From: Alkalibacter rhizosphaerae
GTDB lineage: Bacteria > Bacillota > Clostridia > Eubacteriales > Alkalibacteraceae
Assembly (NCBI RefSeq): GCF_017352215.1
Contig: NZ_CP071444.1
Coordinates: 682,001-746,000, forward strand
DNA length: 64,000 nt
Direction of reading: 5' to 3'
In this document: positions 27,580-59,366 of the stretch, one piece after another
Numbering within the stretch: the first letter of the stretch is position 1
How the letters are laid out: each line of letters starts with the position of its first letter
Translations under genes and position numbers: made by a program
The notes under the pieces: model-generated
The model's input: only the letters and a program-made list of their open reading frames with translations
The model's database searches: none
What the model was told of the DNA's origin: nothing

Positions 27580-28092
27580 TCACATGGTGAGTGCCTCAAT
27601 GATTTGGTTCACCACCTGGCCTTTATGCAGGCCCCGTTGGAAAGCGATCCGCATTTCCTTTTGTTCCTTTTCATCTTGTTTTTTTTCTTGTTCCTTCAAA
27701 AAATCAGGAGTTTCATAAAATATGATCTTCCAATCATCTTCCTGCAACCATATCACCATGGGAATGCGGGCCTCTTCTTCCAGTTCCTTCATCAGATCTT
27801 CATATTTCTCCTGCAAGGCCAAACCCATTTTCAAACCGGGGCTATGTTTTTCCATGTTGTGAAGGGTGGCAGTCACGATCCTGCAATCCGGGCATTGAGG
27901 ATCACAGAATACCAGGAGTCTGGCATTTAAGGATGCAGAACGGATCCGCTTTTGTTCCTCATCGTTCATTTCCATCTTTTGCAGGTAGTGAAGATGCTTG
28001 TCCCGATCTTCGCCTTCAGACAGGTCTACGTATTCTTCGTAAGTGATGGCATCTTCAAAAATCTCCATCAATTGCTTCGTCATATTTGTCAT
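27580..28092 (-). CDS. Thioredoxin-family protein (CPDC)
   Basis: A 170-residue cytoplasmic protein with a thioredoxin-like core: LLVFCDPQCPDCRIV holds the CPDC redox motif, and ARIPMVIWLQ gives the expected cis-proline strand. The N-terminal 55 residues are helical and acidic; the C-terminus is rich in Glu and Lys. Similar proteins are annotated as thioredoxin family in Clostridia. GGAGGAGGATAAAAA precedes the ATG. Confidence 0.75.
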   Translation of the reverse strand: MTNMTKQLMEIFEDAITYEEYVDLSEGEDRDKHLHYLQKMEMNDEEQKRIRSASLNARLLVFCDPQCPDCRIVTATLHNMEKHSPGLKMGLALQEKYEDLMKELEEEARIPMVIWLQEDDWKIIFYETPDFLKEQEKKQDEKEQKEMRIAFQRGLHKGQVVNQIIEALTM

Positions 28093-28144: not shown

Positions 28145-28173
28145 TTGACAAAAGAACCCTTTTCCCATATAAT
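28145..28173 (+). promoter_or_regulatory. Perfect consensus sigma-A promoter of the orphan cobalamin riboswitch
   Basis: TTGACA (28145-28150), a 17-bp spacer and TATAAT (28168-28173) match the consensus exactly. Transcription should begin near 28180, just before the riboswitch. Confidence 0.85.
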
Positions 28174-28194
28174 CAGTTTAAATTACATAGTGTG

Positions 28195-28350
28195 TTCTTT
28201 GGTTCGATCAGGCGATCGATGAAAAGGGAAGCCGGGTGTAAATCCCGCACGGTCCCGCCGCTGTAACAGAAGAGTTGCGATCCACATGCCACCATTCGTT
28301 GGGAAGGCGGTCGCAATGACGACGCTGGAGTCAGAAGACCTGCCAAAGAA
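28195..28350 (+). ncRNA. Cobalamin (B12) riboswitch
   Basis: The P1 stem pairs TTCTTTGG (28195-28202) with CCAAAGAA (28343-28350). The conserved core is present in order: AAAAGGGAAGCCGGGTG, AAATCCCGC, GGTCCCGCCGCTGTAA, GGGAAGGCGG, and GGAGTCAGAAGACCTGCC. It senses adenosyl- or methylcobalamin and should control the terminator that follows. No B12 transport or synthesis gene lies downstream. Confidence 0.95.
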
Positions 28351-28361
28351 AGATGTTTTTG

Positions 28362-28436
28362 TTCTACGAGAGATGGAACGGACACGCAATCGAAATGATT
28401 TCGGGTCGTCTTCTCTTTGTAGAAGGCGATTTTTGT
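28362..28436 (+). terminator. Riboswitch expression platform: antiterminator and terminator
   Basis: The terminator stem is TCGTCTTCT (28406-28414) with AGAAGGCGA (28421-28429), followed by TTTTT. The segment 28362-28373 (TTCTACGAGAGA) can instead pair with 28412-28424 with one bulge, which would break the terminator. The two folds are mutually exclusive, as expected of a transcriptional riboswitch. Confidence 0.7.
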
Positions 28437-28474
28437 TTGACATTTACTTCCTCAAAGTAATGCAATAAAAGAAG

Positions 28475-28517
28475 ACTCTCTTTTTCCAGCCACTGGACCG
28501 GGTGTGAAAAAGGGAGT
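28475..28517 (+). terminator. Second strong hairpin downstream of the riboswitch
   Basis: A 12-bp stem ACTCTCTTTTTC/GAAAAAGGGAGT with one G-U pair and a T-rich tail. It lies between the riboswitch terminator and the PNPOx-like gene with no ORF in between, so read-through RNA would probably end here. Confidence 0.65.
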
Positions 28518-28582
28518 TTTCCTTTTCATTATCCACTTTTTATTGTAAAATAATATTAAAATATGATTTATAGGAGGATGTT

Positions 28583-35112: not shown

Positions 35113-35132
35113 CAACGAAAAGATTTGTATAG

Positions 35133-35168
35133 AAAAGGGGAAAGCCGTTTGTTCGGTTTTCCCCTTTT
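35133..35168 (+). terminator. Terminator of the universal stress protein gene
   Basis: Arms AAAAGGGGAAA-GCCG and CGG-TTTTCCCCTTTT with a short loop and T-run. Confidence 0.85.
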
Positions 35169-35428
35169 AAATTCTATCGGGATGGTTCCCACTAAAGATG
35201 ACATTTTCAAAGTAGTTGATTTGATCCATGGTCGCCAAGGAACAGGCGGCGGTAGGCTGTCCCTTGGTCATGACATGGATCGAAAAACACACATTTCAAC
35301 CATCCGACAGCATGGATGCTACTCTTTGCAGGGTTTGAGAGGTAGCAGTGTCGCAAGGCCAAAAGTTTTCATTGCCCGTGCAATTGTGCAAAAAAAGAGC
35401 AACGTTTCCGTTGCCAGGTTTGACGTGC
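35167..35428 (-). pseudogene. Possible ORF interrupted by one in-frame TGA
   Basis: On the minus strand an ATG at 35428 opens a frame of 43 codons, one TGA (35296-35298), then 42 codons to a TAA at 35167. Both halves use plausible codons and are Cys-containing (NCTGNENFWPCDTAT, then CVFSIHVMTKGQPTAACS). There is no ribosome site, and a terminator-like hairpin lies at 35399-35414 inside the first codons. I recognise no family. It may be a decayed gene, a recoded UGA gene or chance. Confidence 0.25.
35399..35414 (-). terminator. Terminator-like hairpin with GNRA loop
   Basis: On the minus strand GCAACG-GAAA-CGTTGC is followed by TCTTTTTTT. It could end the molybdopterin oxidoreductase transcript, whose stop is 200 bp upstream. 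Confidence 0.6.
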
Positions 35429-35616
35429 ATCAATATTGAATAAAAAATTCAATTAAAGATAGCATTTCCATCCTTTCCAAGCACGGGTGGCATCATCGTT
35501 TCCTTTGACACCAATAGGTTGTTGCACCATGGACACGTCTTTAGGTTGCAACAACTCGGATGTAAATATGAACTTCCACCCCAATAATATCAATTTTCAT
35601 ATTCCCTGTCAATGCG
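35429..35616. other. Non-coding stretch with inverted repeat
   Basis: No gene with a start signal is visible. A repeat GTTGTTGCA near 35514-35522 pairs with TGCAACAAC near 35544-35553. A minus-strand frame from about 35553 to 35453 (VSMVQQPIGVKGNDDATRAW) looks coding-like but has no clear start, so it may be gene debris. Confidence 0.35.
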
Positions 35617-45542: not shown

Positions 45543-46532
45543 TTAGAACAACTCTGCGCTGGCTTTGTTGATGGCTTCCGTCACGGCTTCATACACGCCT
45601 TCATAAATGCTGTTTGCTCCGCCCATGGTGGTCCCTGGAATGAAATAGAGTTTTCCACATGCCTTGCAAACTTCCAGAGTCACTTCGTCAATGTGTTCTT
45701 GTGTCCAGTCTTCCCGATCCACGATCCCATTGTCGATGCCGCCCATAAAGCTGATCTGGCCGCCGTATTTTTGGATCAACTCGGGAATATTGTTGGTACT
45801 CATGGCCCCCTGCCAAATGTCGATGCCCATTTCGATCATGCCCGGCACCAGGTTGGCTGCATAGGAATCACTATGATGTACGATCAATTCCACACCATGC
45901 TCCTTGTAGTATCCATAGACTTTTTTATAGGCCGGCACGTAAAACTCTTCAAACATTTCCGGGGAAATAAAAGATGCTTTTTGGCTGCCCCAGTCGTCGT
46001 GATGGAACAATGCGGTCGGTTTCAAGTATTTGCAGATCTGTTCTGCATATTGAACTTCCCAATCGGCAATAAAGTCGATCAGTTCATGCATCAGTTCCGG
46101 TTCTTCGTAGAAGTTCAGCAAGGTCCGCTGCATTTCCATCAAATAGTGGCATTGCTCGAAGATCCCTGGCGCAACAAAAGCTGTGGCAAAATATTCGTCC
46201 CTGTCGATGGCCATGGCCTGCTCCACGTAGGGTGCCCAGTCTTCTTCCGGGAAGAGGACGCTGGGTGCCTTCACGGTTTCTTTCCATTTGGTGATGTCTT
46301 TTACGACAATGTGCTCAAAGTCATGCACTGGAAAAGGTCCTGGCGTGTTGTCCGGAAAAGATCGGGTGACCCCCCATTTGTTGACCACATTCAATTCCCC
46401 TTTTTTCGGATTGGAATTGGAAGCGGAAAACGGATTTACCGCCATCATGGCAAATGCTTCATAGGAGTTCACAAACCGGTCCGGGTTTCCTCCACGAATG
46501 GTTTCCAATAGATTTTGCTTCTTTGACAACAT
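45543..46532 (-). CDS. UROD-superfamily methyltransferase-like protein 1
   Basis: A 329-residue member of the uroporphyrinogen decarboxylase superfamily, which includes corrinoid methyltransferases such as MtaA/MtbA and CmuA. MLSKKQNLLETIRGGNPDRFVN is typical of the methyltransferase branch, as are FHHDDWGSQ, ISPEMFEEFYVPAYKKVYGYY and VELIVHHSDSYAANLVP. The HxC zinc ligand pair of MtaA reads HHSDS, and the Cys found in the paralogues near residue 300 is replaced by IPGTTMGG. It stands alone, without an adjacent corrinoid protein. Confidence 0.85.
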   Translation of the reverse strand: MLSKKQNLLETIRGGNPDRFVNSYEAFAMMAVNPFSASNSNPKKGELNVVNKWGVTRSFPDNTPGPFPVHDFEHIVVKDITKWKETVKAPSVLFPEEDWAPYVEQAMAIDRDEYFATAFVAPGIFEQCHYLMEMQRTLLNFYEEPELMHELIDFIADWEVQYAEQICKYLKPTALFHHDDWGSQKASFISPEMFEEFYVPAYKKVYGYYKEHGVELIVHHSDSYAANLVPGMIEMGIDIWQGAMSTNNIPELIQKYGGQISFMGGIDNGIVDREDWTQEHIDEVTLEVCKACGKLYFIPGTTMGGANSIYEGVYEAVTEAINKASAELF

Positions 46533-46574
46533 ACATTTACGACCCCTTTCTTTGTAAAATTGATTTCTTTTATT

Positions 46575-46603
46575 ATTATATCCGTTATGTCGGGCCGAAA
46601 CAA
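46575..46603 (-). promoter_or_regulatory. Promoter of UROD-like gene 1
   Basis: TTGTTT (46598-46603) and a perfect TATAAT (46575-46580) with 17-bp spacing on the minus strand, about 35 bp before the start codon. Confidence 0.6.
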
Positions 46604-46970
46604 TTATGCAAAGATGCGTAGTTTTTGTACTGCAATTCTACAAAGTGTCGAATAGGGATGGAATGCTCTTATTTTCTCCCGTATTTCTTGTTATAATACT
46701 TCAATGAATAGGAATACAGCTCATCTCTGGCAATTTTTTCTTGCTCCTTATTGAAATTTTCTGTCATGATCCAACACATGACTTGACCAGTATCTCCATA
46801 TTTATCAACAAAATCGCGAATGGCTTGGCGAACTTCTTCTTCTCTTTATTTTCAATGAATTTGCTAAAATATTTTTGGGAAACTCGCTTGCCAACTTTCT
46901 TACATCTTTTCCCCAAACTTCCAAAATTACAGGTTATAATATTGCTATAAACCACAAGGGAGGTTTTCAC
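46604..46970. other. Divergent intergenic region
   Basis: AT-rich DNA upstream of UROD-like gene 1 and the flavin reductase-like gene. A TATAAT (46935-46940) on the plus strand probably serves the flavin reductase gene, although no good -35 box is seen. Short frames here lack ribosome sites and I reject them as genes. Confidence 0.5.
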
Positions 46971-47663
46971 ATGTACTATGAAACAGAAAAAGACGACCAC
47001 CATTTGCCAATGAGTCCTTTCAAGTCCTGTGTCGTACCAAGAGCCATCGGCTGGATCTCCACACAAAGCCCCGACGGCGTAGACAATCTGGCTCCTTACA
47101 GCCAGTTTCAAAACCTGACATTCGACCCGCCTTACGTAATGATCGCCATCAACCAAACTCGGGATGGAAAACGAAAAGACACCACCAACAACATCGAGGC
47201 AACAGGAGAGTTCGTCTACAACATGGTTACCTACGATTTGAGGGAACAGATGAACAAAACAGCAACCGGCTTTGAACCGGAGGTGGATGAATTTGAAAAA
47301 GCTGGCTTGACCAAGTCTCCTTCCAAGCTGGTAAAACCCTTCCGCGTCGCCGAGTCCCCCATCCAGATGGAGTGTGTCTATCATTCCACCATACGGCTTC
47401 CCGGTAGAGGAGACATGGGAACGGTGGATGTGTTGATCGGTAAAGTTGTGGCGGTCCACATCCAAGACGACGTCATCGGCTCTGATGGCAAAATCGATAT
47501 CGTAAAGATCAAACCTTTGGCCAGACTTGGCTACGGAGATTACACCACCGTCGATCACAGCTTTACCATGCTGATCGAACCGGAACGGGAGGACATCACC
47601 CCGGAAGAAATGTTTTACGGACTCAGCGGGGCATCTGTCATTAACAGTCGAAAAAAAGAATGA
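46971..47663 (+). CDS. Flavin reductase-like FMN-binding protein
   Basis: A 230-residue split-barrel flavoprotein of the DIM6/NTAB (flavin reductase-like) family: SPFKSCVVPRAIGWISTQ, DNLAPYSQFQNLTFDPPYVMIAI and DTTNNIEATGEFVYNM are characteristic. It may reduce flavin or use bound FMN for electron transfer. GGGAGGTTTTCAC precedes the ATG. Lying within the methyltransferase region it could supply electrons there, but this is only positional. Confidence 0.88.
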   Translation: MYYETEKDDHHLPMSPFKSCVVPRAIGWISTQSPDGVDNLAPYSQFQNLTFDPPYVMIAINQTRDGKRKDTTNNIEATGEFVYNMVTYDLREQMNKTATGFEPEVDEFEKAGLTKSPSKLVKPFRVAESPIQMECVYHSTIRLPGRGDMGTVDVLIGKVVAVHIQDDVIGSDGKIDIVKIKPLARLGYGDYTTVDHSFTMLIEPEREDITPEEMFYGLSGASVINSRKKE

Positions 47664-48043
47664 GATGAGAACAAAAAATTCTTAAGGGATAGGATCTAAA
47701 ATGCTTGACCGCTACCCCTTAAGAATTTGATTCATTAGTCATGTAAACTTCCTTTCTATGGCTAATGATTTTAACAAAGCAGATCTTGTTTTGGAATTCC
47801 CCTTTGAAACTTTGATACTGTGTTGCTTTGGTACTTCTTTCACTTTTGCGTACGATTTTTGGTCGTACTTGGGCAATTCGTAAAATGGTGCTTCAACAAC
47901 GTTTCTCTTTCATCTCAAACTACTACAAACCAATGTTTCACATTCATTCTTTCAAACGCTCGTGAAGATTAAATCTGAAGCTTTTGGGATCTTCCTAACG
48001 CCATCTTTCTTTGTTGTTTTTTAGATACCCGGCAATAAATGAC
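47664..48043. other. Gene-free stretch with a 13-bp inverted repeat
   Basis: AAATTCTTAAGGG (47676-47688) and CCCTTAAGAATTT (47716-47728) form a perfect hairpin that probably terminates the flavin reductase gene. On the minus strand, GAAAGGAAG and an ATG precede it with only seven codons, perhaps a gene remnant. The rest (47740-48030) has no open frame and no recognised element. Confidence 0.6.
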
Positions 48044-48790
48044 TTAAACACCCAAATCCGATTTTTTTTGAAAAATTTCGTAAAGGCTCCTTGTGGATTC
48101 CGGATCTTTTAGATTGAAAATCACGATTTGCCCATCCATTCTCACAAAAACATACGGCGCTTTCTCTGTATCAACGAACAGCTTTATTGTTCCGTATTCC
48201 GACGTTCGAAAATTTCCTTTTAGCATCGATCCCCACTCGGAACCGTTGGTCCTTTTTTCAATGATGGGCAATTTTTCCAAAAGAGCCACTTCTTCCACAC
48301 TAGACCAGGAATACGCAGATCCGTAGATCCCCGATATCTCAAATCCATTGGCTCCAGTGTCCACCTGGATCGGTTTGGAAGTCAATTGAAAAACCAACAA
48401 CACAAACAATGCAGAAACAACCAGGATGGCGTAGACCAGTTTCATCTCTCTTTTTCCCTTTCCCGTCCACTTACCCTTCTTGTCCACCATGTTTCCATCA
48501 TATCTTTGGGCCTTGATCAATAAATAAGCCGTTGAAAGGAACATGAACGCCACCCAAATGGTAATGACATGATCCACGCCCAATTCACCAAGGATACCTG
48601 CCAAGATCATCAAGAGACCGTTGCTGTACATGTACAATCCCATCAACTTTCCCAGTTTTTCCACGTCCACGTTCTTTTTCTTTTCTTTTGACATGGTATT
48701 GTAGCCGGATATGAGAAAATGCCATTTCATGATATGAATGCCAAATCCGAGGATCAGAAATAAAACTCCTCCTGCAATAAAAAAGACCAT
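48044..48790 (-). CDS. DUF3784 membrane protein with PH-like C-terminal domain
   Basis: A 248-residue protein. The first 100 residues contain three membrane helices with the SGYNTMSKEKKKNVDVEKLGKLMG (in parts) signature of DUF3784; a fourth helix (LVYAILVVSALFVLLVFQL) precedes a beta-rich domain (about 145-250) like the small PH-type domains following such helices. Function unknown. GGAGGGG precedes the ATG at 48790. Confidence 0.8.
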   Translation of the reverse strand: MVFFIAGGVLFLILGFGIHIMKWHFLISGYNTMSKEKKKNVDVEKLGKLMGLYMYSNGLLMILAGILGELGVDHVITIWVAFMFLSTAYLLIKAQRYDGNMVDKKGKWTGKGKREMKLVYAILVVSALFVLLVFQLTSKPIQVDTGANGFEISGIYGSAYSWSSVEEVALLEKLPIIEKRTNGSEWGSMLKGNFRTSEYGTIKLFVDTEKAPYVFVRMDGQIVIFNLKDPESTRSLYEIFQKKSDLGV

Positions 48791-48842
48791 GATCACCCCT
48801 CCTGGGATTATTTTACGGTAATTTTAACTAAATGAAAAGCAA

Positions 48843-48870
48843 AATCCCTCCGGCTTCTGCAGGAGGGATT
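48843..48870 (-). terminator. Terminator of corrinoid unit B
   Basis: AATCCCTCC/GGAGGGATT with a ten-base loop and flanking T-runs, after UROD-like gene 2. Confidence 0.8.
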
Positions 48871-48928
48871 TTTTTCGCCCAGGGTGAGTGGGACTTTGGC
48901 ATATAAAAGTGGTTCTTTTATATCGGAT

Positions 48929-49906
48929 TTAGAACAGTTCCTTGCTCATGCGGTCGATCTCTTTCGTTACAGCATCGTAGACACCTTCGAAAGATGACAT
49001 GGGCAGACCGGAAGTCAGACAAGGAATGAAGTAGTGCTTGCCATTGGTTTTGCAGGTCTCTTCCACAAACTCGGCTGCAATTTCCGGGGTCCATTCCGGG
49101 AAATCGATCTGGCCGCTGTGCAAGCCACCCATGAAAGTGATCTTTCCGCCGTATTCCTTGATCAATTTCGGAATGTCATTGGTGTTCATGACTCCCTGCC
49201 AGATATCGATCCCCATGTCGATCATAAAGGGAACCAGGTTGGCTGCAAAACTGTCGCTGTGATGAACGATCAATTCCACACCGTTTTCCTTATAGTAACT
49301 GTACACTTTCTTGTATGCCGGCAAGTAGAACTCTTCGAACATTTCCGGCGACAAGAAGCTGTTGATCTGGCTGCCCCAGTCATCGTGATGGAACATGGCA
49401 TCCGGCTTCACGTGCTCAACCACGGCTTTTGCAAAATCCAATTCTCTTTCCACAATAGCATCGATCAGGTCCTTCATGGCTTCCGGCTCTTCGTAGAGCG
49501 CCATTAACGCATTTTCGATGCCCATCAAGTGATGGCATTGTTCAAAGATCCCCGGAGCATAAAAAGGTGCTACATACATTTCGTTTCGGTCGATTCGGTC
49601 TGCGTGCTCTTTTGCTGCAGCCCAGGATGCGGCATCCATGGGGATCGGCGGAACGGTTACTTGCTCTCTCCACTTGGTGATGTCTTTGATGACGATGTGC
49701 TCGTCGTCATGGACCGGGAATTGTCCCAACTGTCCTTCTGGCCATTGCCAGGTGATCCCCCATTGGTCCTTCCAAGTTTCGCCGTAACGAAACTCTACGC
49801 CCAACGGCATTTCCATGATGATCTCCAAAAATTCGTATTGATTTACAAAGCGGTCCGGGTTTCCTCCGGTCATTACTTCTTTCAGGTTTTGTCTTTTCGT
49901 TAACAT
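48929..49906 (-). CDS. UROD-superfamily methyltransferase-like protein 2 (unit B)
   Basis: A 325-residue paralogue of the proteins at 45543 and 50773, closest to the latter by eye. NLKEVMTGGNPDRFVNQYEFLEII, FHHDDWGSQINSFLSPEMFEEFYLPAYKK (in parts), VELIVHHSDSFAANLVPF and HYFIPCLTSGLP are conserved. Methyltransferases of this superfamily move methyl groups to or from a corrinoid protein; the corrinoid protein is encoded 58 bp upstream. The HxC zinc pair reads HHSDS; Cys in IPCL is kept. Substrate unknown. Confidence 0.86.
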   Translation of the reverse strand: MLTKRQNLKEVMTGGNPDRFVNQYEFLEIIMEMPLGVEFRYGETWKDQWGITWQWPEGQLGQFPVHDDEHIVIKDITKWREQVTVPPIPMDAASWAAAKEHADRIDRNEMYVAPFYAPGIFEQCHHLMGIENALMALYEEPEAMKDLIDAIVERELDFAKAVVEHVKPDAMFHHDDWGSQINSFLSPEMFEEFYLPAYKKVYSYYKENGVELIVHHSDSFAANLVPFMIDMGIDIWQGVMNTNDIPKLIKEYGGKITFMGGLHSGQIDFPEWTPEIAAEFVEETCKTNGKHYFIPCLTSGLPMSSFEGVYDAVTKEIDRMSKELF

Positions 49907-49964
49907 GTGGCGCCTCCTCTAAGTGATTCGATTCGTTTTCATGATGCGAGTTTGCCGATGATCG

Positions 49965-50582
49965 TTACTTCACCAATTCTTTCGCCTTTGTTACTGCACT
50001 ACCAGCGTCGGGAGCGTATCCGTCTGCCTTGATCTCTGTTGCATATGCCTGGGTTACAGGTGCGCCACCGACGATGACGGTGAATCCGGCATCTTTCAGT
50101 GCCAAAGATGTTTCTTTCAATGCAGGCATGGTGGTAGTCAACAAACCAGATGCAGCAACGATGACGGCATTATTCTCTTTCGCAACTTCAACGAATTTAT
50201 TTGCAGGTACATCCACGCCAAGGTCGATCATGGTGAATCCGGCGCTTTCCAACATCATGCTTACCAGGTTTTTCCCGATATCATGAAGGTCTCCCGCTAC
50301 GGTACCGATTACACAGGTTCCCAAAGATGTGGATGCGTCTCCGGCCAACAACGGCTTGAGTACGTCTACACCCTTGCTCATGGCTTTTGCGGCGATCAGC
50401 ATTTCCGGTACGAAGATCTCTCCGGCGGAGAATTTGTCTCCTACAACGCCCATGGACTCGATCATGGCGTCCAAAATCTCTTTCGGCTGTGATCCACCAT
50501 CCAAGGCTTCCTGGACCAATCCTGCGATCAGCTTGGTTTTACCCTTTGCTACCATTTCTTGAATTTCTGCAACTTTTGACAT
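49965..50582 (-). CDS. Corrinoid (B12-binding) methyl-carrier protein B
   Basis: A 205-residue methyl carrier of the MtaC/MtbC type. The helical N-terminal cap (EALDGGSQPKEILDAMIESMGVVGDKFSAGEIFVPEML, in parts) precedes a Rossmann domain with DLHDIGKNLV, where His is the lower cobalt ligand, and GGAPVTQAYA. It is over 90 percent identical by eye to carrier A at 51775. TAGGAGGAAGTACCC precedes the ATG. Promoter and operator box lie just upstream. Confidence 0.95.
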   Translation of the reverse strand: MSKVAEIQEMVAKGKTKLIAGLVQEALDGGSQPKEILDAMIESMGVVGDKFSAGEIFVPEMLIAAKAMSKGVDVLKPLLAGDASTSLGTCVIGTVAGDLHDIGKNLVSMMLESAGFTMIDLGVDVPANKFVEVAKENNAVIVAASGLLTTTMPALKETSLALKDAGFTVIVGGAPVTQAYATEIKADGYAPDAGSAVTKAKELVK

Positions 50583-50610
50583 GGGTACTTCCTCCTAGTG
50601 ATTTATTGTA

Positions 50611-50636
50611 TGTACAACTTGTGTGTACATGTACAA
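50611..50636 (-). promoter_or_regulatory. Operator-like box of unit B
   Basis: A 22-bp element (50611-50632) made of TGTACAACTTGTGTG, one variable base (T) and ACATGT, extending into TGTACAA. It differs from the box at 52424-52445 in one base. It lies just after the transcription start, a good repressor position; TTGTACA-type half sites fit GntR/HutC regulators. Confidence 0.65.
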
Positions 50637-50640
50637 ATTT

Positions 50641-50669
50641 ATCTTAGCTTAAAATTTGATGTTTGTCAA
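50641..50669 (-). promoter_or_regulatory. Sigma-A promoter of unit B
   Basis: TTGACA (50664-50669), 17-bp spacer, TAAGAT (50641-50646) on the minus strand. Confidence 0.75.
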
Positions 50670-50699
50670 TAATTAAAAATTTGTAAAACCATCAAAAAA

Positions 50700-50725
50700 A
50701 CGCCCCGACAGGCAGATCGGGGCGT
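50700..50725 (-). terminator. Terminator of corrinoid unit A
   Basis: ACGCCCCGA/TCGGGGCGT with an eight-base loop and T7 on the minus strand; separates units A and B. Confidence 0.9.
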
Positions 50726-50772
50726 TGTCCGGTCTATACCGGACAAAATTTTCAAGAAATTGGCATTGTCAT

Positions 50773-51750
50773 TTAAAACATTTTTTCGCTCATCTCACCG
50801 ATGGCTTTGTCGACCTCTTCATAGACTCCCGGGAAGGAGCTGATGTTAAGGCCCTGGGACAAACATGGAATGAAATGAAGTTTCCCACAACGTTTCACGG
50901 ATTTTTCCACTTCTTCTCGAACGATCTCCGGCGTCCAGCCAGGGAAGTCCACGATCCCACTGTCCACGTCACCCATGAAGGTGATCTTGTCGCCGTATTT
51001 TTCGATCAATGCTGGAATATCGTTGGTGGACATGGCGCCCTGCCAAATATCGATACCCATGTCGATCATGAAAGGAACCAGGTTGGCACTGTAGGAATCG
51101 TTGTGATGAACGATCAGTTCCACGCCGTTTTCTTTCCAGAATCCATAGATCTTCTTGTAGGGTGCCAGGAAGAATTCTTCAAACATCTCCGGAGATACAA
51201 AAGATGCTTTTTGGCTGCCCCAGTCATCGTGATGGAACAGTGCATCCGGCTTGATGTATTTTACAGCCAGTCTTGCAAACTCCAACTCCCGCTCCACCAG
51301 TGCGTCGATCAATTCGTGCATGGCTTCCGGTTCTTCATACAGAGCCATCAATGCATTTTCCATGCTCATTAGGTGATGGGTCATCTCAAAGAGTCCTGGT
51401 GCATAGAATGGAGCTACATATTTTTGCGTGCGATCCACATTATTTGCGTGCTCTACTGCAGCAGCCCAAGAAGCTTCATCCGATGGAAATGACGGAATGG
51501 TCACTTGCTCTTTCCATTTTGTGACATCCTTAAGAACGATGTGTTCCTCGTCATGGACCGGGAACTGACCCAGTTGACCTTCCGGCCATTGCCAGGTGAT
51601 CCCCCAGTTGTCCTTCCAAGTTTCTCCATATCGGAATTCTACGCCCAAGGGACATTCCATGATGATATCCAAAAATTCATATTGCTTTACATAACGATCC
51701 GGATTCCCACCGGTCATGACTTCCTTTAAATTTTCTCGAATGGTTAACAT
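50773..51750 (-). CDS. UROD-superfamily methyltransferase-like protein 3 (unit A)
   Basis: A 325-residue protein paired with corrinoid carrier A, 24 bp upstream. NLKEVMTGGNPDRYVKQYEFLDIIME, FHHDDWGSQKASFVSPEMFEEFFLAPYKK (in parts), VELIVHHNDSYSANLVPF and HFIPCLSQGLN show common descent with protein 2. It is a likely substrate:corrinoid or corrinoid:acceptor methyltransferase. The MtaA-type HxC is replaced by HHNDS. ATAGGAGGTAAATT precedes the ATG. Confidence 0.86.
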   Translation of the reverse strand: MLTIRENLKEVMTGGNPDRYVKQYEFLDIIMECPLGVEFRYGETWKDNWGITWQWPEGQLGQFPVHDEEHIVLKDVTKWKEQVTIPSFPSDEASWAAAVEHANNVDRTQKYVAPFYAPGLFEMTHHLMSMENALMALYEEPEAMHELIDALVERELEFARLAVKYIKPDALFHHDDWGSQKASFVSPEMFEEFFLAPYKKIYGFWKENGVELIVHHNDSYSANLVPFMIDMGIDIWQGAMSTNDIPALIEKYGDKITFMGDVDSGIVDFPGWTPEIVREEVEKSVKRCGKLHFIPCLSQGLNISSFPGVYEEVDKAIGEMSEKMF

Positions 51751-51774
51751 AATTTACCTCCTATTTGATTATTA

Positions 51775-52395
51775 TTATTTCTTGACCAATTCTTTTGCTT
51801 TAGTAACGGCACTACCAGCGTCCGGAGCATATCCGTCCGCCTTGATCTCGTCTGCATAAGCTTGGGTAACTGGCGCTCCACCAACGATGACGGTGAATCC
51901 GGCATCTTTCAGCGCCAAAGAAGTTTCCTTCAATGCAGGCATGGTGGTAGTAAGCAATCCGGAAGCGGCAACGATGACGGCCTTGTTTTCTTTTGCCGTT
52001 TCAACGAACTTTGCAGCAGGCACGTCTACACCCAGGTCGATCATGGTGAATCCGGCGCTCTCCAGCATCATGCTGACCAGGTTTTTGCCGATATCGTGAA
52101 GGTCTCCAGCTACCGTTCCGATAACGCAGGTTCCCAACGATGTGGAAGCGTCTCCGGCCAATAACGGCTTGAGCACGTCTACACCCTTGCTCATGGCTTT
52201 TGCGGAGATCAGCATTTCCGGTACGAAAATCTCTCCGGCGGAGAATTTGTCTCCTACAACGCCCATGGACTCGATCATGGCATCCAAGATCTCTTTCGGC
52301 TGTGCGCCGCCGTCCAATGCCTCCTGGACCAATCCTGCTACTACTTTGGTTTTACCCTTTGCTACCATTTCTTGAATTTCTTGAATCTTAGACAT
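51775..52395 (-). CDS. Corrinoid (B12-binding) methyl-carrier protein A
   Basis: A 206-residue carrier nearly identical to carrier B: same cap, DLHDIGKNLVSMMLESAGF with the cobalt-ligand His, and GGAPVTQAYA. An upstream in-frame ATG exists, but GGAGGAAGTGGA precedes the ATG at 52395. First gene of unit A, with its own promoter and operator box. Confidence 0.95.
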   Translation of the reverse strand: MSKIQEIQEMVAKGKTKVVAGLVQEALDGGAQPKEILDAMIESMGVVGDKFSAGEIFVPEMLISAKAMSKGVDVLKPLLAGDASTSLGTCVIGTVAGDLHDIGKNLVSMMLESAGFTMIDLGVDVPAAKFVETAKENKAVIVAASGLLTTTMPALKETSLALKDAGFTVIVGGAPVTQAYADEIKADGYAPDAGSAVTKAKELVKK

Positions 52396-52423
52396 TCCAC
52401 TTCCTCCTATTCGATCTTTCTTT

Positions 52424-52445
52424 TGTACAACTTGTGTGCACATGT
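52424..52445 (-). promoter_or_regulatory. Operator-like box of unit A
   Basis: TGTACAACTTGTGTG, a C, then ACATGT: 21 of 22 bases match the unit B box. It lies between the promoter and the ribosome site. Confidence 0.65.
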
Positions 52446-52455
52446 TCACTTTTAT

Positions 52456-58018: not shown

Positions 58019-59038
58019 TTAATTGTGTTTTTTCAAATCTATGACAGCCCAGTGCAACTCCTTGGACGACAACAAGGTCATTGCCTTTTCTGTTTTCTGC
58101 AACGCAAATGTTCCACAAGACATGCTTTCCTCAGACACCAAGCCTGCCGCCAATAATTGCAACGCTTCCTGATTTCCCTTTCGTGTGCATCCATAGGAAC
58201 CTGCAACATGCAACTCTTTGTAATGGATCTCATTCAATACCTTTGTCGGCATGGTATCCGGCAGCAATCCACTGAAATAACCGATGCTTCCCCCTTTTTC
58301 ACAGATTTGGATTGCCTTGGCGAATGCTTCCATGGATGGAGTACATAAGATCACCTGACTCGGTTTGTTGGGTGACGTTACATTTTCGGTTTCCGGATCG
58401 TTCCAGTTCCAGGTTTTTTGAAAGACTGGATTTTTCAATCTTCCCGGATCCACGTCTGCCACTACGATATCCTTCCATCCCGTTCTTTGGGCCAATAAAT
58501 ACTGCAGGATCCCCAATCGACCGGCTCCAACGATCAGCAACCGATCTGTTTCTCCCTTTATCAATTTCTGCTGCATCTGGATACAACACGCCAACGGTTC
58601 TGCCAATGTCGCCAGTTTTGAGGACATTCCTTCCGGTATGGGAAGAAGCATTCGATCGCCGTCCTCCGGAGCCAACCAACATTTTTCCGACAAGCCTCCG
58701 TCCAAGTGAAAGCCTAAAATTCTCATGGAATCACAAAGATTTTCTCGTTCGGAAAGACAATACTTACATTGTCCGCAATAAGACCCCGGGAAAACTTGTA
58801 CTCGATCGCCTACTTGCCATATGCCGGTGTAACCTTGCGGGAGCCTCTCGATCATCCCAGTGATCTCATGGCCCAGTACCCTGGGATACACAAGATCCCG
58901 ATGACCCCTAATGTGACTTTTTACATCTGCACCACAAATCCCGCAATAATGCACTTCGATGACAAAACCATCTACGGCGACGTCTTTTTCCTTTTTTAAA
59001 ATAAGGGATCCCGGTTTTTCCAATATCATTTTTTTCAT
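58019..59038 (-). CDS. Zn-dependent medium-chain dehydrogenase (threonine/sorbitol dehydrogenase-like)
   Basis: A 339-residue MDR enzyme. HYCGICGADVKSH with GHE gives catalytic zinc ligands; CGQCKYCLSERENLC gives the four structural zinc cysteines; VGAGRLGIL is the NAD(P) loop. Oxidises an alcohol or polyol; substrate unknown. AGGCAGGTGTTTT precedes the ATG at 59038. First gene downstream of the B12 riboswitch and its terminator; the TrpD-like gene starts 11 bp after its stop. Confidence 0.9.
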   Translation of the reverse strand: MKKMILEKPGSLILKKEKDVAVDGFVIEVHYCGICGADVKSHIRGHRDLVYPRVLGHEITGMIERLPQGYTGIWQVGDRVQVFPGSYCGQCKYCLSERENLCDSMRILGFHLDGGLSEKCWLAPEDGDRMLLPIPEGMSSKLATLAEPLACCIQMQQKLIKGETDRLLIVGAGRLGILQYLLAQRTGWKDIVVADVDPGRLKNPVFQKTWNWNDPETENVTSPNKPSQVILCTPSMEAFAKAIQICEKGGSIGYFSGLLPDTMPTKVLNEIHYKELHVAGSYGCTRKGNQEALQLLAAGLVSEESMSCGTFALQKTEKAMTLLSSKELHWAVIDLKKHN

Positions 59039-59066
59039 AAAACACCTGCCTTTCCAAAAAAAATAG

Positions 59067-59088
59067 CCCGCACAATTAAGTGCGGACT
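59067..59088 (-). terminator. Riboswitch-controlled terminator
   Basis: GTCCGCAC/GTGCGGGC with a six-base loop, then TATTTTTTTT on the minus strand, between the riboswitch and the dehydrogenase start codon. Confidence 0.85.
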
Positions 59089-59137
59089 TTCCAGCATCCT
59101 CACGAACTCCTTTCATGTCGCGTGAAAGGTCATTCCA

Positions 59138-59287
59138 TTTCAGGCAGGTCTCCTGACTCAAAGTTTTCACCAACCATCCCTTCCCCATTAATATGAGTGG
59201 ATACGACGGCTGGAACCTTCTTACAGTGGCGGGCCCGTTCGGGTCTTTCACCCGATTCCCTATTCTCTTCTTTCGAAGCACCTGAAA
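59138..59287 (-). ncRNA. Cobalamin (B12) riboswitch
   Basis: On the minus strand P1 pairs TTTCAGG (59281-59287) with CCTGAAA (59138-59144). Core elements occur in order: ATAGGGAATCGGGTGAAA, GACCCGAACGGGCCCGCC, ACTGTAA, GGGGAAGG, and GAGTCAGGAGACCTGCC. With the terminator at 59067-59088 it should switch off the dehydrogenase/TrpD-like operon when cobalamin is plentiful. Confidence 0.95.
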
Positions 59288-59366
59288 CATGATATTCAAT
59301 TTTGTATACCTCAATTATACGAAGCAACAAACTTCCTGTCAAGAGAGTTCATTTCTCGTCTGAAAC

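Follow-up and report, generated by a model that had tools for sequence, protein, structure and literature searches.

We have identified a locus that appears, with good support from its sequence, to encode a stand-alone RNA headed by a cobalamin (B12) riboswitch. A fuller reading, which we hold at even confidence, is that this RNA is a riboswitch-gated antisense sRNA that spares B12 by repressing the mRNAs of corrinoid proteins. The locus lies in a 64,000-nucleotide stretch of DNA (the window) from a single-contig genome of 2.45 Mb, which may resemble the Alkalibacter group, in the same order as Acetobacterium and Eubacterium. This reading draws on features present in the sequence, namely a promoter, an aptamer, two terminators, conservation in a sister species despite a different downstream gene, and preferential complementarity to corrinoid protein start sites; from these we infer the targets of the sRNA, the OFF direction of the switch, accumulation of the RNA, pairing in the cell and translational repression. 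In the scheme that we propose, the strong promoter would start the RNA and, with B12 bound, transcription would stop at terminator 1 (at about 28434), leaving an RNA of about 250 nt that lacks the active part. Without B12 an antiterminator would form and read-through to terminator 2 (at about 28524) would yield an RNA of about 350 nt carrying a conserved core. The open CCUCA loop of this core and its flanks would then pair with the Shine-Dalgarno sequence and AUG of mRNAs for corrinoid methyltransferase proteins, and the resulting block of corrinoid protein translation would spare B12 when it is scarce.

A preliminary description of this locus had proposed a consensus promoter, a complete B12 riboswitch with mutually exclusive terminator and antiterminator, and a second strong hairpin with no gene in between, and closer analysis bore out each of these elements. 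The sigma-70 promoter (TTGACA-N17-TATAAT, 28145-28173, plus strand) agrees with the consensus at 12/12 positions, as does that of the sister species (the congener G001). The full-length aptamer (28183-28361, plus strand) matches the cobalamin riboswitch family RF00174 at 108.9 bits (E 2.3e-26), the gathering score being 31.5 bits, and the aptamer of the sister species (on L021) scores 111.5 bits. It is followed by a conserved 17-nt segment, UUCUACGAGAGAUGGAA (28362-28378, plus strand), the 5' strand of the antiterminator; since a similar motif is also found 3' of other B12 aptamers in the family, UUCUACGAGAGAUGGAA belongs to the switch. Folding pairs UUCUACGAGAGA with UCUCUUUGUAGAA in an antiterminator helix of -15.8 kcal/mol, which was matched by 7/500 shuffles in the window and 13/500 in the sister species. 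Terminator 1, the predicted B12-bound state (28403-28434, plus strand; stem 28403-28432, -12.5 kcal/mol), keeps its fold in the sister species with a changed sequence, and on these folds terminator 1 and the antiterminator would form a mutually exclusive expression platform. A reading frame, LESE[D/H]LP..LREME, begins inside the aptamer in both species (window 28316; L021:1638) and is probably shared owing to conservation of the aptamer sequence; it may be compared with the uORFs in mycobacterial B12 riboswitches (PMC11260477).

The second hairpin (terminator 2, 28471-28524, plus strand) would supply the 3' end of the RNA. It spans approximately 28471-28521 at -26.9 kcal/mol, with UUUUCCUUUU as its U-tract, and the stretch that contains it has a z of -4.8 with no equally good shuffles; a simple terminator scan listed terminator 1 and missed this hairpin. 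In the sister species 13 nt of the 5' arm (28472-28484) are identical, and the 3' arm differs with pairing retained. In the interval from the aptamer to the second hairpin we found no ORF with a plausible start that is common to both species.

The suggestion that the riboswitch drives a regulatory RNA and not the PNPOx-like gene gains support from the sister species, where the hairpins and a 32-nt block precede a different gene. The order of promoter, aptamer, UUCUACGAGAGAUGGAA, terminator 1, 32-nt block and terminator 2 is preserved there, and the gene right after the RNA is a ZIP transporter (PF02535) as against PNPOx plus GH3 here. The downstream hairpins, whose non-conservation had been named as a finding that would speak against a regulatory RNA, are kept. 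Synteny with the sister species takes in genes for a helicase, a dehydrogenase and DeoR on one flank; the opposite flank contributes a formate-dehydrogenase-like gene, a phosphodiesterase and further genes. Divergently from the RNA lies a thioredoxin-like gene (27580-28092, minus strand). Of the family's five other genomes, only that of the sister species has a relative of this gene (33% identity), and there too the B12 riboswitch on L021 starts divergently from the relative. Neighbouring genes in the window and the sister species are only 33-68% identical. In the region from 60 nt past the aptamer onwards, the longest stretch shared by the two species is 32 nt at this locus vs 8-11 nt in the four ordinary B12 leaders common to both genomes (those of cbiM, btuF, cobT and an alcohol-dehydrogenase-like gene). 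The 32-nt block is present in one copy in each of these two genomes. The RNA is missing from the third congener and from 64 other genomes of the order, and a search for the block in 67 genomes of the order gave just two matches outside the genus, both with mismatches (G012 and G051), the one in G012 resembling protein-coding DNA when judged by eye. The block was absent from viral contigs (exact search) and from plasmids, and the segment downstream of the aptamer gave only chance-level Rfam matches, far below gathering scores.

This block, UUUUGUUUGACAUUUACUUCCUCAAAGUAAUG (28431-28462, plus strand), is the 32-nt core that we propose as the pairing region, and it is identical in the sister species. 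Because the core sits behind terminator 1, it is expected to be transcribed only upon read-through, that is, at low B12; read-through at low B12 is expected in turn because cobalamin riboswitches are typically OFF switches (PMC11477304). The core hairpin is weak in both species, and its CCUCA loop (28450-28454, plus strand), the proposed anti-Shine-Dalgarno seed, has a folding-derived unpaired probability of 1.0 in both. The reverse complement of the core, CUUU-GAGG-AAGUAA-AUG-UCAAAC, resembles a Shine-Dalgarno sequence, a spacer and a start codon. The locus combines a promoter and a terminator of its own with a conserved, accessible pairing region and the lack of a conserved ORF, and so has the features of a base-pairing sRNA. 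Two other roles for the region were considered and rejected. The palindromic core could have been a DNA operator, but it is single-copy in each genome and occurs nowhere else nearby, which is atypical of a regulator site; an antisense role against an overlapping gene was discarded for want of conservation in the minus-strand frame (MSNK..).

The hypothesis that B12-dependent genes are silenced was fixed before targets were scored. An abundance of B12 proteins also favours the reading: B12-binding domains number 18 and 27 in the two genomes and occur mostly in small corrinoid proteins. RNAduplex scoring covered about 930 gene start regions, 509 from the window's genome and 425 from the sister species, the background being sampled stretches, not the full annotation, with starts picked by Shine-Dalgarno strength. 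Corrinoid starts outpaired this background with both a 50-nt core (Mann-Whitney p 9e-5 and 1e-4) and the 32-nt core (p 2e-5 and 4e-6), the tests in the two genomes being not fully independent because the corrinoid genes are paralogues common to both. When the flanks of the core were shuffled and CUUCCUC was kept, most of the corrinoid preference was lost: it fell from the observed -5.2 and -4.4 kcal/mol to -1.6 +/- 0.9 and -1.5 +/- 0.7 kcal/mol, and 0/120 shuffled cores were as selective in either genome. A stricter control used anti-start pseudo-cores, the reverse complements of 160 random real start regions, of which 0 and 1 were as selective in the two genomes and none in both.

The best corrinoid pairings were with MSKIQE-type proteins, and the window holds two genes of this type. 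The predicted target at the start of one such corrinoid gene (49965-50582) is GAGGAAGUACCCAUGUCAAA (50575-50594, minus strand; about -24 to -26 kcal/mol), where 8 + 9 pairs would flank a small internal loop at the start at 50582. At the start of a second corrinoid gene (51775-52395) the predicted target is GGAGGAAGUGGAAUGUCU (52390-52407, minus strand; -21 kcal/mol), with 15 predicted base pairs and one bulge at the start at 52395. Both genes adjoin URO-D-type methyltransferases. More broadly, 45543-52449 (minus strand) holds a cluster of URO-D-type methyltransferase and corrinoid protein genes that is likely a methyl-group transfer system.

A B12-gated base-pairing sRNA could also act on other mRNAs, or on many, through a generic anti-Shine-Dalgarno loop, and we consider this unlikely while giving it real weight. 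The core does look like a generic anti-start sequence, and some non-corrinoid starts score equal to or above the corrinoid starts, among them those of unrelated genes such as L127 MSNKK.. (-31 kcal/mol) and, in the sister species, an ABC ATPase (-28.6 kcal/mol). When the comparison was confined to background genes likewise beginning with AUGUC, corrinoid starts had only a weak advantage (p 0.08 and 0.02). No near-perfect long target was found in either genome, counts in a reversed-pattern control being similar. A loop acting generically nevertheless fits poorly with a corrinoid preference that exceeds that of the 160 pseudo-cores in both genomes as well as that of the flank-shuffled cores, and it is on this preference that we favor corrinoid mRNAs as the targets.

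Improbable, in our judgement, is that the locus is an unusual cis leader whose tandem terminators control the downstream gene. As the preliminary description had stated, the next gene is PNPOx-like (PF01243, 28583-28987, plus strand) and lies behind the second hairpin; it starts approximately 60 nt past terminator 2 on the same strand, an arrangement that would suit cis control, and a weak promoter-like site (9/12) is found 3' of terminator 2. We nonetheless regard the gene as a neighbour outside the system, and comparison between genomes leads us to reject cis control of PNPOx. Our reasoning for this is that: (i) the RNA's orthologue in the sister species sits before a ZIP transporter; (ii) four further genomes of the family encode relatives of PNPOx (35-58% identity), and no such relative has a B12 riboswitch beside it, though these genomes carry 4 to 12, and therefore the switch is not tied to PNPOx; (iii) Rfam likewise revealed no B12 riboswitch around more distant PNPOx relatives and (iv) cis control would leave the 32-nt block without a role.

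Somewhat less probable still is that read-through yields an mRNA for a small peptide under B12 control, for example one starting at TTG and reading MFDIYFLKVM... In both species that frame runs uninterrupted through the block and meets a stop within a few codons, but no good ribosome site is found in both, and longer frames diverge or, in the sister species, end before the block. Identity at every codon position is also unlike coding constraint, given that neighbouring proteins are 33-68% identical.

It had also been suggested that the RNA might resemble Rli55 of Listeria and EutX of Enterococcus in titrating a regulator. The likeness holds for the gating logic and fails for the titration, and we consider a sponge for an ANTAR antiterminator very improbable. 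The ANTAR target consists of two hairpins with six-base loops that have A at position 1 and G at position 4 (PMC3369931). A scan for such hexaloops gave one in the window, inside the 3' arm of terminator 2, and none in the sister species, so that there is no A1/G4 pair; EutB was absent from all three congeners. The genome does have an ANTAR protein, as a sponge would need, but the search for such regulators proposed earlier returned this one alone (L013:8176-8745). It carries a response-regulator domain and is encoded one gene from a glutamine synthetase-like gene (glnA), which leaves titration unsupported. Just as improbable is a relic, a riboswitch remaining after the loss of its gene: no gene lies between the terminators, but promoter, aptamer, block and terminator 2 are strongly conserved across two diverged species.

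There is precedent for the physiological logic of a corrinoid-directed sRNA. When a cofactor is scarce, sRNAs of the RyhB/FsrA type shut down the proteins that need it; in those systems a repressor protein senses the metal, whereas the sRNA proposed here would have the sensor built in. Precedent for the gating comes from Rli55 and EutX, in which a B12 riboswitch also precedes a non-coding RNA that is made at full length only without B12, and which prevents B12-dependent metabolism from running in the absence of its cofactor (PMC8079631). These RNAs sequester the ANTAR protein EutV, as described for Rli55 (PMC8079631), whereas our locus has no ANTAR loop pair, its genome has no eutB, and its conserved part is anti-start-like. 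AspocR of Listeria is likewise a B12-gated non-coding RNA, full length without B12, which acts on the adjacent pocR apparently by base pairing (PMC8079631). It is, however, a 1,400-nt antisense of that gene, whereas the RNA described here would be about 350 nt with distant proposed targets, no gene lies opposite its conserved part, and in both species the genes that follow it share its strand. Pairing with an mRNA in trans, as we propose here, is known for SreA, a SAM riboswitch RNA of Listeria that acts on prfA (PMC8079631). In that case the short, ligand-terminated RNA is active and a normal operon lies downstream, whereas in our scheme the activity would reside in the read-through form, and our locus lacks an operon.

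The gating is thus already known, and the novelty lies in the effector mechanism and the class of targets that we propose; we found no B12-gated RNA acting on corrinoid protein start sites in the open-access literature. We suggest, with somewhat less than even confidence, that this would be the first case of a B12 riboswitch gating a base-pairing sRNA that acts in trans and spares B12 by silencing a whole family of corrinoid proteins at their start codons, with sensor and effector in one RNA. Riboswitches are almost always taken to control the next gene in cis, and the known riboswitch-gated regulatory RNAs (Rli55, EutX and AspocR) work by protein sequestration or on an adjacent gene. If our proposal is true, pairing with many start sites would tie the sensing of a cofactor to an entire set of proteins that use it, and would do so in anaerobes that rely on B12 methyltransferases for their energy metabolism. 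It would be worthwhile to check riboswitches filed as orphans, or misassigned to the next gene, for conserved sequence past the terminator.

Other riboswitches were seen in the course of this work. A Moco/tungsten riboswitch (RF01055, 35573-35454, minus strand) in the region 35130-35612 has no evident gene of its own and no counterpart at the syntenic position in the sister species. It has a TTGACA-N17-TATTAT promoter (11/12) and a terminator-like hairpin (35415-35398), after which nothing convincing as a gene precedes a convergent UspA-like gene; its transcript could end at a GGGGAAA..TTTCCCC hairpin near 35165-35130. A B12 riboswitch in the sister species lies directly before a gene for a MATE-type-like transporter, as judged by eye (L014:1292-2920). 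The window also holds a second B12 riboswitch (59300-59126, minus strand; region 58019-59300) with a 12/12 promoter, which precedes an alcohol-dehydrogenase-like gene (PF08240), a pairing of switch and gene that is kept in the sister species.
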